This document shows positions 1-29,508 of a DNA stretch of 47,474 nt, piece after piece. The DNA is from Rhodospirillales bacterium. GTDB taxonomy: Bacteria > Pseudomonadota > Alphaproteobacteria > ATCC43930 > CGMCC-115725. Location of the stretch: NCBI GenBank assembly GCA_028288725.1, contig JAQGIC010000104.1, positions 1 to 47,474 of the forward strand. The letters run 5' to 3'. The position numbers and the translations under genes are program-made. The first letter of the stretch is position 1, and the number at the start of each line of letters is the position of its first letter. Under the pieces are notes generated by a model that made no database searches, was not told the DNA's origin, and saw nothing but the letters and a program-made list of their open reading frames with translations.

Positions 1-1502
1 CCCTCGGCGAAGCGCCGGTTGAACTCGGCCATATCCGTCACCCGCGCGCCGGGCACGCCCATGCCGCGGGCGAGCGCCACCCAATCCAGATCGGGCCGGC
101 CGATGTCGAGCATGTCGAGCGCCTTGCGGCCGACGTTCTGGGCGCCGACATTGGCGAGTTCGCCGCGCAGGATGGCGTAGGAGCGGTTGGCGAACAGCAC
201 GATGGTCACGTCCAGGCCCTCGCGCGCCATGGTCCAGAGCGCCTGCAGCGTATACATGGCGCTGCCGTCGGCCTGCAGGCAGATGGTCTTGCGGTCGGGG
301 CAGGCGAGCGCCGCGCCGACGCCCATCGGCAATCCCAGCCCGATCGATCCGCCCATGTTCTGCAGCCAGGTATGGGGTTGCGCCGCTCGCGTCGGCGGGA
401 AGAAGGCGCGGCCGCTCGACACCGCCTCGTCCACCACGACGGCATGCTCGGGCATGAGCGCCGCCAGCGACAGGCTGATCGCCTCGGGCGTCACGGACCC
501 GGTGCCGGGGGCCGGCGGCGCCAGACCGGAGACGGGGGCGGCATGGCGGCCGGCGCCCACGGCATCGGCGAGGGCATCGAGCGCTGCGACCAGATCCTCC
601 TCCGGCCGGGCCAGCACATGCATCCGCGCCTCGGGGTGGGTCAGCACGCTGGGCTTGTCGGGATATGCGAAGAACGCGACCGGTTGCCGGGAGCCGACCA
701 GGATCACGTGTTTGAAGCCGGCGAGCGCCGCGACGGCGGCATCGACCGGATAGGGCACGCGTTCGACCGGCACCCGACCGGCGCCGCGCTCGATCCTTGC
801 GTTGAATGTCTGCGCCAGCAGGCGCGCGCCAGTCGCCACCGCGATCCGGCCGGCGAGATCCAGCCCGCGCTCGCCGACGGCGGCGCCGGTCAGCAGCAGC
901 AGCGTCGGCTCGCCCGACCGGAGCACGCGCGCGGCGGCATCGACCGCGTCGTCCGAGACCGAAGCGCGACCGGGCACCGGCGGTACGGCCGCCGGCCCCG
1001 AGCCCTCGTTCCAGGCAGTGTCGGCCGGCAGGATCAGGGTCGCGACCCGGCCGGGGGGCGTGATCGCCGCCGCGATCGCCGCGGCGCCGTCGGCGGCCAC
1101 GCTCTTGGCGTCCGGCGAGGTATGGACCCAGCCGGAAAACGGCCTGGCCGCGGTCTCGATGTCGGAGGTCAGCGGCGCGTCATAGGCCCGATGATATGTC
1201 GCGTGATCGCCGACGATATTGACCATCGGCGTCGAGGCCTTAACCGCGTTGTGCAGGTTCGCGAGGCCATTGGCCAGGCCGGGGCCCAGATGCAGCAGCG
1301 TCGCCGCCGGCTTGTCGGCCATGCGGGCATAGCCGTCGGCCGCCCCGGTCACCACGCCCTCGAACAGGCCCAGCACGCAGCGCATGCCGTCGACCCGGTC
1401 GAGCGCCGCCACGAAATGCATTTCCGACGTACCCGGATTGGCGAAACAGACCTCGACCCCGCCACCGACCAGAGTCCGCACCAGGCTTTCCGCACCATTC
1501 AT
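1..1502 (-). CDS. Thiamine-diphosphate-dependent enzyme, acetolactate synthase large subunit-like (3' end outside window)
   Basis: About 500 residues are visible; the C-terminus lies beyond the left edge. The order is that of the acetolactate synthase/benzoylformate decarboxylase superfamily: an N-terminal pyrimidine-binding domain with the likely catalytic Glu48 in GLFEGVVTGAADGYAR, a central domain, and a C-terminal pyrophosphate-binding domain. The usual GDG of the ThDP/Mg motif is ADG (residues 411-413), followed by a Ser. The start ATG at 1502 gives MNGAESLVRTL, a normal beginning for these proteins. No small regulatory subunit is adjacent, so a biosynthetic IlvB role is not favoured; a decarboxylase or carboligase on an unknown 2-oxo acid is equally possible. 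The family is clear, the substrate is not. Confidence 0.85.
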   Translation of the reverse strand, partial: MNGAESLVRTLVGGGVEVCFANPGTSEMHFVAALDRVDGMRCVLGLFEGVVTGAADGYARMADKPAATLLHLGPGLANGLANLHNAVKASTPMVNIVGDHATYHRAYDAPLTSDIETAARPFSGWVHTSPDAKSVAADGAAAIAAAITPPGRVATLILPADTAWNEGSGPAAVPPVPGRASVSDDAVDAAARVLRSGEPTLLLLTGAAVGERGLDLAGRIAVATGARLLAQTFNARIERGAGRVPVERVPYPVDAAVAALAGFKHVILVGSRQPVAFFAYPDKPSVLTHPEARMHVLARPEEDLVAALDALADAVGAGRHAAPVSGLAPPAPGTGSVTPEAISLSLAALMPEHAVVVDEAVSSGRAFFPPTRAAQPHTWLQNMGGSIGLGLPMGVGAALACPDRKTICLQADGSAMYTLQALWTMAREGLDVTIVLFANRSYAILRGELANVGAQNVGRKALDMLDIGRPDLDWVALARGMGVPGARVTDMAEFNRRFAE

Positions 1503-15478: not shown

Positions 15479-15982
15479 TCAGATCACGAAATCGACGATC
15501 CCGTCACACTTGCTGGACAGGCCGGCGAGCCGGCTCAAGCGGCACAATTCGGCGAGCGTCACCCGGTCGAATTCGGCCAGCACCAGCTCGTGCACGCGCT
15601 CGACCATCGGCAGCACGACCTTGCGCATGGTCGGCGACGGCGACTCGGTGAAGGGCGTCGGCTTGTCCTGCCCCATCATGGCGCGCGCGATGGCGCCGAC
15701 GGTGACGGCGCCGCGCTCCGCGCCCAACAGATAGCCGCCGTTCGGGCCGCGGACGCTCTTCAACAGACCCGCGCGGGACAGGCGCTGCAGGATGGCCTCG
15801 AGCTTGCGCGTTTCCAGGCCCTGGCGCTCGCCCAGCTCCGCTGCCGGCAAGGGACCGCCGGCGCCGTTGAACGAGACGTCGAGCATGATGTCGATCGCCA
15901 AAAGAAAGCGCCGGGGCAGCCAGGCGGCCAACCCCTGCAGCACCGCTTCCGCATCCTGTTCTTCACTCGCCGCCATGCTCAC
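15479..15982 (-). CDS. Rrf2 family transcriptional regulator
   Basis: 167 residues. The winged-helix domain is recognisable by RFLLAIDIMLDVS, LGERQGLETRKLEAILQRL and the wing SVRGPNGGYLL (residues 76-86), the signature of IscR/NsrR/CymR proteins. The Cys cluster that binds Fe-S in IscR and NsrR (around residues 90-110) is absent; only Cys147 and Cys159 occur near the C-terminus, so sensing differs. AGGAG 7 bases before a GTG at 15982 supports this start; ATG 15976 is the alternative. It precedes the small membrane protein and YeiH-type gene on the same strand, likely as their regulator. Confidence 0.85.
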   Translation of the reverse strand: MSMAASEEQDAEAVLQGLAAWLPRRFLLAIDIMLDVSFNGAGGPLPAAELGERQGLETRKLEAILQRLSRAGLLKSVRGPNGGYLLGAERGAVTVGAIARAMMGQDKPTPFTESPSPTMRKVVLPMVERVHELVLAEFDRVTLAELCRLSRLAGLSSKCDGIVDFVI

Positions 15983-16033: not shown

Positions 16034-18841
16034 TCAGCTTTTGGGCGGACGCAGATCCAAATGGTCGCGGATCACCGCGGCCAGCTGGTCGATCGTGCTT
16101 TGCGATTTGATCAGCACCGCGACCAGCTCGTCGCGCCGGTCGGGCCCGATCTCCTGGGCCGAAAACAGCACGGTCGGGGGCGACCGCATGCCCTTGACGT
16201 TCTTGACGTCGTCGAGCAGCGCCAAGCCATTGCCGTCGACCAGACCGACATCGAGGATGACCAGGTCGATATCGCCACCGATCAACCGCCGGCGCGCCTC
16301 GGCCAGCGAGGAGGCCGCGATCACGTCGGCCTCGTCCCTCAGCGCATATTCGACCAGCCGGACGATGTCGGGATCGTCCTCGACATGCAGCACGCGCGGT
16401 TTGCCGACGCGGCGGCGCGCCAGATCCAGGGCCAGATGCAGCCGGTCGCCCTCGATCGGCTTGCCGATCCAATCGACCACGCCCAGCACCTGGCCGGTCA
16501 GCATCGGATCCTCGACCTTTTCATCGAGCCAGGCCGAGATGACGATGACCGGCATGGCGGCGTGACGCTGGTCGGCGCGAATCCGGCGCAGCATGTCGAT
16601 GCCGTCGCCGTCGGGCAGCGCCAGATCCAATGTCATGGCATCGAACCGGCCGGCATCGAGCAGCCGCATGGTCTCGTCGGCGGTCGCCGCCCGGATCGAC
16701 TGATAGCCGGCGTCGGCCAGCTGCAGCCGCAGGATATGGGCGACGTCGTCGTCATCCTCGCAGATCAACACCCGCTTTTCGCCGTGCTCGGGCGTCGGCG
16801 TGTCGGTCAGGCGCCCGCGCTTTTCCGGCAGATCGACATGGAAGGTCGAGCCCACGCCCCATTCGGACTCGAATCCGATCCGGCCGCCATGGCGCTCGAC
16901 GATGGATTTCACGATCGACAGACCCAGCCCGGTACCGCCCTTCTGGCGGCTGTCGGTCGCGTCGGCTTGCGCGAACTTCTGGAAGATGCGCGGCTTGAAC
17001 GCGTCCGGAATGCCGCGGCCACGGTCGCTCACGGCCAGATGCAGCGTGCCATCGGCGCGGCTGGTCGAGACCGAGACCGCGCCCCCCGCCGGCGAGAATT
17101 TGACGGCGTTCGAGATCAGATTGGTCAGCACCTGCAGCAGACGATGTTCGTCGCCCCACACCTCGGCATCGAGCGGCTCGCCCTCGTGCGCCAACGTGAC
17201 CTGGAATTTCGCCGCGAAATCCAGGTTCTCGCCGATCGCGCGCTCGACCAGCCGCCGGATCGGCACGCTGGAGAACTCGAACACCAGTTCGCCGGCCTCG
17301 ATCCGCTCCAGATCCAGAATATCGTTGATTAGACGGACCAGCCGGTCGCAGTTCGACCGCGCGATGGCGACAAGGCTCAGCGCTTTCTCCGGCAGCGCAC
17401 CGGCCGTGCCCTTGGCCATCAGGGCAAGGGCGCCCGAAATCGAGGTCAGCGGCGTGCGCAATTCATGGCTGACGGTCGAAACGAACTCGTTCTTCACCCG
17501 CTCCAGCGCCCGCTTTTCGGTGATGTCGCGCACCGCGGCGACGAACAGGCGCTGGCCCCGGAGCATGGTCTCGGTCAGCGCGATCTCCATCGGAAAGATC
17601 GAGCCGTCGGCGCGCAGCCCTTCGACCTCGCGGACAGTGCCCAGGATCGCGGAATGGCCGGTCGCCTGGTACCGCTCCAGATAGCCGTCATGCGCCGAGG
17701 CGAACGGCTCCGGCATCAGCATGCGCACATTGCGCCGCATCACCGCCGCCGCCGGATAGCCGAACACCGTCTCGGCGGCGCGGTTGAAGCTTTCGATCGA
17801 TCCGGACGGATTGATCGTGATGATGCCGTCGAGCACGCTGTCGTTGATCGCGGCCAGCCGCTGGTGGCTCGCCGCCAGCTCGGCCTGGGCATGATCCAGG
17901 TCGGTCACGTCCGCGATGGTCTTGAGCCGCGCGGCGCCGCCGGTTTCGTCGACGATGCCGCTCGCCACCGCCAGCACGGCCCGGGTCGTGCCGTCGGGCC
18001 GTTCGATCGTCAGCCGGCGCGACAGCCCGGCCTCGGCGAATTGATCGAAGAATGCCGGCCGCGTGCCGATGAGAGCCGCCTGGTCCTGGCCGACGAGCGT
18101 GTTGAAGGAGGCATTGGTGCGACGCAGCTTACCGTCCGGACCGGTCAGGGCGATGCCGACCTGAACCGTATCGAACACGATGGACATCAGGCGTTCGCTG
18201 GCATGGACCGTCGCCTCGGCCTGCTCGCGCCGCTTCGCCTCGCGCTTCAGCAACGAAAAGGCGCCCGCCAGGACCAGCAGCATGGCGCCGCCGGCGCCGA
18301 TGAAGATCCTGAGGCTCTCGGTCCGGGCGAGATCCGCCGCCGCCGTGCGCTCCGCCAGCAGTGCCAGTTCGGCCTCGCGCATCGTTTCGCTCAGCGCCCG
18401 GATCTGCCCCATCACCGGAATGCCTCTGGCGGTCGGCATCGCACCGTCGGCGCGGAAGCGCGCCAGCGTGTCCATGAGGATGGCCCGCCGCTGCTCGGCC
18501 AGTCCGGCCAGGCGTCGCGCGTTATCGACCTGAAGCGGATTGTCCGCGACCAGCGCAATCAGCTCGCTCGACAGGCGGTCCAGGGTCCGTCCGCTCTCAT
18601 CGACGACTGCGAGCATCCGTTCGTCCCGGTTCAGGATGAAGCCGCGCGCGCTGGTTTCGGCATCGGTGATCGCGCCCCGAACGCCGGCGATCTTGTCGAT
18701 CACCTGATAGGTATGGGTGACCCAGGCCTCGCGTTCGCCCACGGCGTTCTGAGCCCAGAGCGCCAGCAACAGGCTGCCGGTCAGAATAACGATCAGCGCC
18801 AGGCCGACCAGACCGACCGCCGCACGCTCCAGTGTGCGCAT
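16034..18841 (-). CDS. Hybrid sensor histidine kinase: CHASE3 - PAS - FixL-like PAS - HisKA - HATPase - REC - REC
   Basis: 935 residues. A membrane helix (about 10-31), a periplasmic CHASE3 region (35-175) and a second helix (178-198) are followed by PAS1 (about 215-315), PAS2 (about 328-443), HisKA with phospho-His459 (SHELRTPL), an ATPase domain (N577, DRGRG and GTGLGL motifs) and two receiver domains with phospho-Asp739 and Asp864. PAS2 keeps the FixL proximal heme His (His384, in HDGYLERY) and the Arg 20 residues later (Arg404) that contacts bound oxygen, so heme-based sensing is plausible. rrf2 lies 51 bases downstream on the same strand. No separate output response regulator is encoded here. 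Confidence 0.9.
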   Translation of the reverse strand: MRTLERAAVGLVGLALIVILTGSLLLALWAQNAVGEREAWVTHTYQVIDKIAGVRGAITDAETSARGFILNRDERMLAVVDESGRTLDRLSSELIALVADNPLQVDNARRLAGLAEQRRAILMDTLARFRADGAMPTARGIPVMGQIRALSETMREAELALLAERTAAADLARTESLRIFIGAGGAMLLVLAGAFSLLKREAKRREQAEATVHASERLMSIVFDTVQVGIALTGPDGKLRRTNASFNTLVGQDQAALIGTRPAFFDQFAEAGLSRRLTIERPDGTTRAVLAVASGIVDETGGAARLKTIADVTDLDHAQAELAASHQRLAAINDSVLDGIITINPSGSIESFNRAAETVFGYPAAAVMRRNVRMLMPEPFASAHDGYLERYQATGHSAILGTVREVEGLRADGSIFPMEIALTETMLRGQRLFVAAVRDITEKRALERVKNEFVSTVSHELRTPLTSISGALALMAKGTAGALPEKALSLVAIARSNCDRLVRLINDILDLERIEAGELVFEFSSVPIRRLVERAIGENLDFAAKFQVTLAHEGEPLDAEVWGDEHRLLQVLTNLISNAVKFSPAGGAVSVSTSRADGTLHLAVSDRGRGIPDAFKPRIFQKFAQADATDSRQKGGTGLGLSIVKSIVERHGGRIGFESEWGVGSTFHVDLPEKRGRLTDTPTPEHGEKRVLICEDDDDVAHILRLQLADAGYQSIRAATADETMRLLDAGRFDAMTLDLALPDGDGIDMLRRIRADQRHAAMPVIVISAWLDEKVEDPMLTGQVLGVVDWIGKPIEGDRLHLALDLARRRVGKPRVLHVEDDPDIVRLVEYALRDEADVIAASSLAEARRRLIGGDIDLVILDVGLVDGNGLALLDDVKNVKGMRSPPTVLFSAQEIGPDRRDELVAVLIKSQSTIDQLAAVIRDHLDLRPPKS

Positions 18842-27507: not shown

Positions 27508-27530
<23 letters not shown>
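27246..27530 (+). pseudogene. Probable LysR-regulator C-terminal remnant
   Basis: This lies in the only gap over 300 bases (27163-27507). An open plus-strand frame from 27246 to the stop at 27530 encodes, around 27325-27440, LLVEPETVRAISLVRIAG followed by RRFSPAVATFVAACRTYAWPG. This resembles the last 40 residues of LysR-type proteins (VEPxxxRxIxLV, then GRxxSPAVxxFV, then W). There is no DNA-binding or effector domain upstream, because that DNA codes for the HpnL-like gene on the other strand. The tail after 27440 looks non-homologous. It overlaps the end of the TPR kinase by 23 bases. Best read as a decayed fragment; a chance frame is possible. Confidence 0.4.

Positions 27531-29508
<1,978 letters not shown>

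Follow-up and report, generated by a model that had tools for sequence, protein, structure and literature searches.

A CHASE3 hybrid histidine kinase of a Rhodospirillales bacterium with a putative FixL/DosP-type heme PAS domain

Heme PAS domains of the FixL type are a class already known and widespread. DosP (EcDOS) has a phosphodiesterase, not a kinase, as its output. BvgS is a hybrid kinase, and its N-terminal sensor domain differs from that of the protein described here. According to the available text of PMC3726324, BvgS is a membrane sensor kinase whose PAS was modelled with the FixL-type His placed in helix F; no heme signal was obtained from this PAS, whether it was purified directly, supplied with heme or produced in medium containing hemin or levulinate, and the His643Ala substitution left basal activity and abolished modulation. 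Having a His on the F-helix is thus not enough for heme. FixL is called membrane-bound in the accessible part of PMC7888657, where hFixL of Rhizobium appears as a FixL variant called hybrid, with FxkR rather than FixJ as its partner. For Bradyrhizobium FixL (BjFixL), the consulted portion of PMC10765370 describes the roles of His200, Arg206, His214 and Arg220 and of the distal residues Leu236, Ile215 and Ile238, Arg220 being in contact with bound O2. The survey of Xing et al. counted more than 9,700 PAS domains with a heme-ligand His (PMC10468136, part of text). The review PMC8846402, in the part available, states that no function is known for CHASE3. In the open-access literature, judged by titles and the openings of abstracts, we found no paper dealing with a heme PAS in a CHASE3 kinase.

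The window, by which we mean the whole stretch of 47,474 nucleotides that was analysed, carries on its minus strand (16034-18841) an ORF of 935 aa for a hybrid histidine kinase. Pfam and hydropathy gave the architecture TM - CHASE3 - TM - PAS1 - PAS2 - HisKA - HATPase_c - REC - REC, with the following features:

16034..18841, minus strand: hybrid histidine kinase (ORF, translation, Pfam)
18764..18823, minus strand: transmembrane segment 1, about residues 7-26 (hydropathy)
18341..18730, minus strand: CHASE3, residues 38-167, presumably periplasmic (Pfam PF05227, E 5.8e-25)
18251..18313, minus strand: transmembrane segment 2, about residues 177-197 (hydropathy)
17882..18229, minus strand: PAS1, about residues 205-320, divergent (PAS_9 and PAS_4 count two stretches; limits estimated)
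17522..17860, minus strand: PAS2, residues 328-440, predicted FixL-type heme PAS (Pfam PAS, phmmer, AlphaFold2, structural alignment)
17690..17692, minus strand: His384 codon (CAT), counterpart of the proximal heme ligand BjFixL His200 (phmmer and structural alignment)
17672..17674, minus strand: Arg390 codon (CGG), counterpart of BjFixL Arg206, heme propionate contact (phmmer alignment; PMC10765370, part of text)
17630..17632, minus strand: Arg404 codon (CGC), counterpart of BjFixL Arg220, bound-O2 contact (phmmer and structural alignment; PMC10765370, part of text)
17291..17494, minus strand: HisKA, residues 450-517, phospho-acceptor His459 (Pfam; alignment)
16820..17155, minus strand: HATPase_c, residues 563-674 (Pfam)
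16427..16771, minus strand: receiver 1, residues 691-805, Asp739 (Pfam; residues by alignment)
16052..16399, minus strand: receiver 2, about residues 815-930, Asp864 (two Response_reg stretches in Pfam; limits by eye)

CHASE3 scored 88.2 bits with PF05227 (cut-off 28) and lies between two hydropathy peaks, which represent the membrane segments. The description of the protein in the initial annotation, a membrane CHASE3 hybrid with two receivers and a second PAS domain at 17490-17860, agrees with both analyses. The phospho-acceptor His459 is common to eight of eight aligned proteins, the ATP-site residues (Asn578, Asp606 and Gly608/610/636/638/640) are intact, and so are the receiver pairs Asp739/Lys794 and Asp864/Lys912. 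The protein thus looks like a working hybrid kinase. No recognised cofactor motif was found in PAS1. The window also encodes, at 27508-29508 on the minus strand, a histidine kinase with TPR repeats before HisKA that is unrelated to PAS2.

In phmmer searches with PAS2, the best matches among PDB sequences were SmFixL (1d06, E 1e-27), BjFixL (2e-22) and DosP (1e-11), and all 14 sequences at E 0.01 were FixL (7), DosP (6) or 10jx, an entry titled heme-binding PAS. All five FixL alignments shown were gap-free, and they place His384, Tyr387, Arg390, Ile399, Arg404 and Met418 at the positions of BjFixL His200, Tyr203, Arg206, Ile215, Arg220 and Met234, respectively. The annotated spacing of 20 residues between His384 and Arg404, equal to that of His200 and Arg220, was therefore borne out, as was the presence of the propionate-contact Arg (Arg390). 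In contrast to BjFixL, PAS2 has Ala398 at the place of His214, the other propionate contact, and Ala366 and Ala411 at the places of the salt-bridge pair Glu182/Arg227. Ile420 and Leu422 replace Leu236 and Ile238, Ala435 stands at the place of Gly251 and Thr402 at that of Ile218. As judged from these alignments, the pocket residues of FixL are kept in PAS2, though not every one. Thr402 is also found at the place of DosP Met95 and, given the role that we assume for this Met, FixL-like five-coordination is to be expected.

A model of PAS2 was obtained with AlphaFold2 (pLDDT 90.1, pTM 0.80) from an alignment of the domain with 20 relatives out of the 24 that have both His and Arg (see below), L051, L093 and L094 being left out for a poor motif and L053 for unread bases. 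The rows had been picked for His and Arg and are biased toward both, so that their invariance in this alignment is no evidence. His384 was found within a helix (residues 380-394) and Arg404 within a strand (403-409). In Foldseek, ranks 1-20 were all taken by FixL chains. In VIA-align the model matched BjFixL (2vv6) with Z 21.0 and 0.9 Å over 106 of 106 residues, and 13 FixL entries gave Z 20.0-21.0 at 36-44% identity to their heme domains; for the DosP entries listed, the values were 13.7-16.5 and 25-29%. Model residues 19..124 fall on BjFixL 152..257. The offset is 133 at both ends, and hence model residue 67 (His384) falls on 200 and model residue 87 (Arg404) on 220. With DosP (1v9y), where model residues 10..122 fall on 20..132, the ends imply that His384 coincides with residue 77 and Arg404 with residue 97. 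The structure-based alignment thus puts His384 inside the F-helix of the domain model, not outside it. The fold alone, however, is no argument for heme, because LOV, NifL and other PAS domains not titled heme proteins match the model at Z of about 13-16 (3lyx, 16.2; 3bwl, 15.3; LOV, about 14; NifL, 13.8), close to the values for DosP. A full-length model from 13 sequences (pLDDT 72.1, pTM 0.35) was too weak to place CHASE3 relative to PAS2; in it, pLDDT fell below 50 at residues 378-384 and the helix begins at residue 385, one past His384.

PAS2 is nearest, in sequence and in fold, to FixL and DosP, as are the FixL/DosP-type heme PAS domains (cluster 3 of Xing et al. 2023), and the heme-ligand His on the F-helix and the distal O2-contact Arg are both present. 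PAS2 is itself ordinary for its class. The match of sequence and predicted shape to the FixL heme domain suggests that PAS2 is a putative FixL/DosP-type heme PAS, and that the kinase probably senses oxygen. The window kinase shares with FixL of Bradyrhizobium and Sinorhizobium the PAS2 fold, the proximal His, the O2-contact Arg, the propionate Arg and a hydrophobic distal side. It differs from FixL in its CHASE3 N-terminus, in its two C-terminal receivers and in its scanned neighbours, none of which is fixJ-like. It resembles hFixL in so far as the latter, too, is described as a hybrid.

We consider it likely, from the sequence and the model, that PAS2 is an O2-responsive cytoplasmic heme-PAS input that gates a membrane hybrid kinase. 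PAS2 would hold a b-type heme in the cytoplasm through His384 on the F-helix, and Arg390 would hold a heme propionate. On the distal side, Ile399, Ile420 and Leu422 would surround the bound O2, which would accept a hydrogen bond from Arg404. By analogy with FixL, from which we infer the sign of the response, ligand binding would alter the dimer of PAS domains and, via the helix leading into HisKA, switch the kinase off. Phosphate would be transferred from His459 to Asp739 and/or Asp864 and then to an onward partner. CHASE3 may provide a second, periplasmic input. The interpretation given in the initial annotation, that periplasmic and heme sensing would be combined in this kinase, is partly supported; the predicted FixL-type heme pocket on which it relied is supported by the sequence and by the predicted structure.

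The genus consists of two genomes, and the orthologue in the congener is 75% identical to the window kinase. It keeps His384, Tyr387, Arg390, Ile399 and Arg404. Identity between the two proteins was 53% for CHASE3, 61% for PAS1, 83% for PAS2, 97% for HisKA, 85% for HATPase and 81% and 82% for the receivers, and PAS2 is thus much better conserved than the two other input domains. A match at 1e-100 was found in two of the 39 genomes of the family, own genome included, with 22 candidates scored per genome and many of the genomes incomplete. The congener orthologue (L032, position 1501) has Ile at the place of the ATG start of the window protein, which puts the start of one or the other in doubt.

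The own genome also encodes a paralogue (L033; contig C8, 17874-19700) that is 61% identical to the window kinase over residues 317-931. The paralogue has the same PAS-kinase-REC-REC core and another N-terminus (by eye Cache/GAF-like). Its PAS still matches SmFixL (5e-15) and keeps the His and both Arg residues, with Glu at the place of Tyr387 and Phe at that of Ile399. In the congener's copy of this paralogue (L034), the His is replaced by Glu, a gap is found at the place of Arg390 and Arg404 is kept. A paralogue without Tyr387 and a congener copy without the His indicate that decay of the heme site happens in this kinase family.

Named genomes were scanned with two peptide patterns; 332 relatives were confirmed, and the best 80 loci were kept. 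As one pattern (DG[ST][ISR]FPME) lies within PAS2, the scan favours FixL-like PAS domains. Of these best 80 of 332, 74 match across PAS2 and six do not. Both His384 and Arg404 are present in 24 of the 74 that match, with a doubtful His in L051, L093 and L094 (His384 was doubtful in L051, L074, L093 and L094 in the first alignment, and in L051 and L104 on realignment). We then considered 81 aligned rows, comprising the 74 relatives, four proteins of the genus, the FixL of the own genome, SmFixL and BjFixL. A His is found at position 384 in 32 rows (two of them, L051 and L104, doubtful) and is missing from 49, many of which are poorly alignable PAS domains. Arg404 was present in 28 of the 32 His-bearing rows and in 12 of the 49 His-less ones (Fisher 1.9e-8, uncorrected for kinship). 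In these alignments the His and the Arg are linked, though not inseparable: a Rheinheimera group keeps the Arg without the His, and in four loci with a FixL-like PAS (L086, L097, L101 and L105) His is replaced by Tyr together with Arg by Leu. The PAS domains of these four could bind something else, or heme in a different manner. On the distal side, Leu occupies the place of Ile420 in 27 of the 32 His-bearing rows and the place of Leu422 in four, and Gly is found at the place of Ala435 in 27.

The CHASE3 part of the window kinase was matched by tblastn in ten of the 80 relatives. At least six of the best 80 (L037, L038, L039, L044, L050 and L107) join CHASE3 to a His/Arg PAS, a lower bound since tblastn was run on all 80 and Pfam on the six only; Pfam reported CHASE3 in each of these six. 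Four or more show the order CHASE3-PAS_7-PAS-HisKA-HATPase-REC-REC (L037, L038, L039 and L044); in Pfam, L050 shows no receiver and L107 has HAMP and one receiver. As far as these domain matches go, the combination of CHASE3, a heme-type PAS and two receivers is not unique to the window kinase. L037, from Oceanibaculum pacificum, has the same domain order, His384 and Arg404, and is 41% identical over residues 9-925. It differs from the window kinase in that its PAS1 is a clear PAS_7 and in having Asn at the place of Arg390.

The main rival to an O2-responsive heme PAS is a PAS2 that works mechanically and without heme: it would have the FixL fold, a His of structural importance, and the sole task of relaying the CHASE3 signal, as argued for BvgS. 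The BvgS PAS, with the same helix-F His, gave no heme signal (PMC3726324, available text), and 40% of the PAS domains in cluster 3 of Xing et al. lack the His (PMC10468136, part of text). That 49 of the 81 aligned PAS domains are without it suggests that the module can work without heme. The altered distal set of PAS2 (Ile420, Leu422 and Ala435) and the loss of His214 and Glu182/Arg227 also speak against the reading as an O2-responsive heme PAS. PAS2, however, keeps, besides the His, Tyr387 and Ile399 as well as the two Arg residues for O2 and propionate contact, it reaches 36-44% identity to the FixL heme domains in the structural alignment, and it is far better conserved than CHASE3, the domain whose signal it would relay. 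We regard a heme-free PAS2 as unlikely.

It also seems conceivable, at a somewhat lower likelihood again, that PAS2 binds heme and responds to NO, CO, the redox state or heme itself rather than to O2; as the two readings share the heme step, their likelihoods overlap. Many heme PAS domains bind several gases, and Thr402 and Ala435 change the distal side of PAS2. Nevertheless, Arg404, the counterpart of the FixL O2-contact residue (PMC10765370, part of text), is kept in the congener orthologue, and the Arg/His pair recurs in the 24 of 74 relatives noted above, three of them with a doubtful His.

The own genome has a separate fixL (L127; contig C35, 5332-9091), which scores 587 bits with the FixL equivalog model NF041777 and is itself under the curated cut-off of 850. 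By eye, a fixJ-like and a fixK-like gene come after it, and cytochrome bd subunit-like and CydDC-like genes lie upstream; the genome thus seems to have a regular FixLJK system. Contig C11 (L128, 2267-5352) carries a second FixL/FixJ-like pair with an adjoining FixK-like gene; by eye, this kinase is without a FixL-type heme PAS. Among 28 PAS stretches of the own genome, many of them partial (loci were available for 30 of its 38 PF00989 matches), His and Arg both occupy their FixL positions in three, which belong to the window kinase, the paralogue on contig C8 and FixL itself. That the window kinase is a FixL orthologue, or a redundant second FixL acting on FixJ, is very improbable: although it is the fourth best match to NF041777 in its genome, it scores only 179-181 bits and has two receivers of its own, and none of its seven scanned neighbours is fixJ-like, which agrees with the earlier view that it is not a FixL orthologue.

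The nearest of these neighbours are a thiolase gene and

15479..15982, minus strand: Rrf2-family regulator, 51 bases downstream of the kinase (Pfam)

Pfam reported no receiver or histidine phosphotransfer domain among the seven. An Rrf2 counterpart, 87% identical, follows the congener orthologue. Lying 51 bases downstream on the same strand, with the neighbour kept in the congener, the Rrf2 gene may form one transcription unit with the kinase gene. Beside the kinases of the best 80 loci, tblastn at 1e-4 detected Rrf2 only in L062 and L066, weakly (about 2e-6) and about 2-3 kb from the kinase match. By eye, the regulator has only two cysteines, both near its C-terminus; judged by the ligand pattern that we take NsrR and IscR to have, an Fe-S cluster of their type is probably absent. 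FNR/FixK boxes (TTGAY-N4-RTCAA, one mismatch) were considered as a sign of O2 control and set aside, with three matches in the window for 1.8 expected and none near the kinase gene.

Possibly, the window kinase belongs to a family of two-input oxygen kinases in which a conserved heme-PAS/kinase/two-receiver core is joined to unrelated, exchangeable N-terminal sensors (CHASE3; by eye Cache/GAF-like; others), a periplasmic cue and intracellular O2 are read together, and the heme site is given up stepwise in some copies. We put this forward tentatively, with rather less than even confidence. The domain class is well known, and what is gained here is the combination of domains in the window kinase. 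If PAS2 binds heme, the bacterium would have at least two heme-PAS kinases, the FixL system and a membrane hybrid, and the latter could balance O2 against a periplasmic cue. Together with its paralogue and the His-less copy of the congener, the window kinase also forms a natural series on what becomes of a FixL-type PAS after the heme ligand is lost, and the role of such a PAS is the question left by BvgS.
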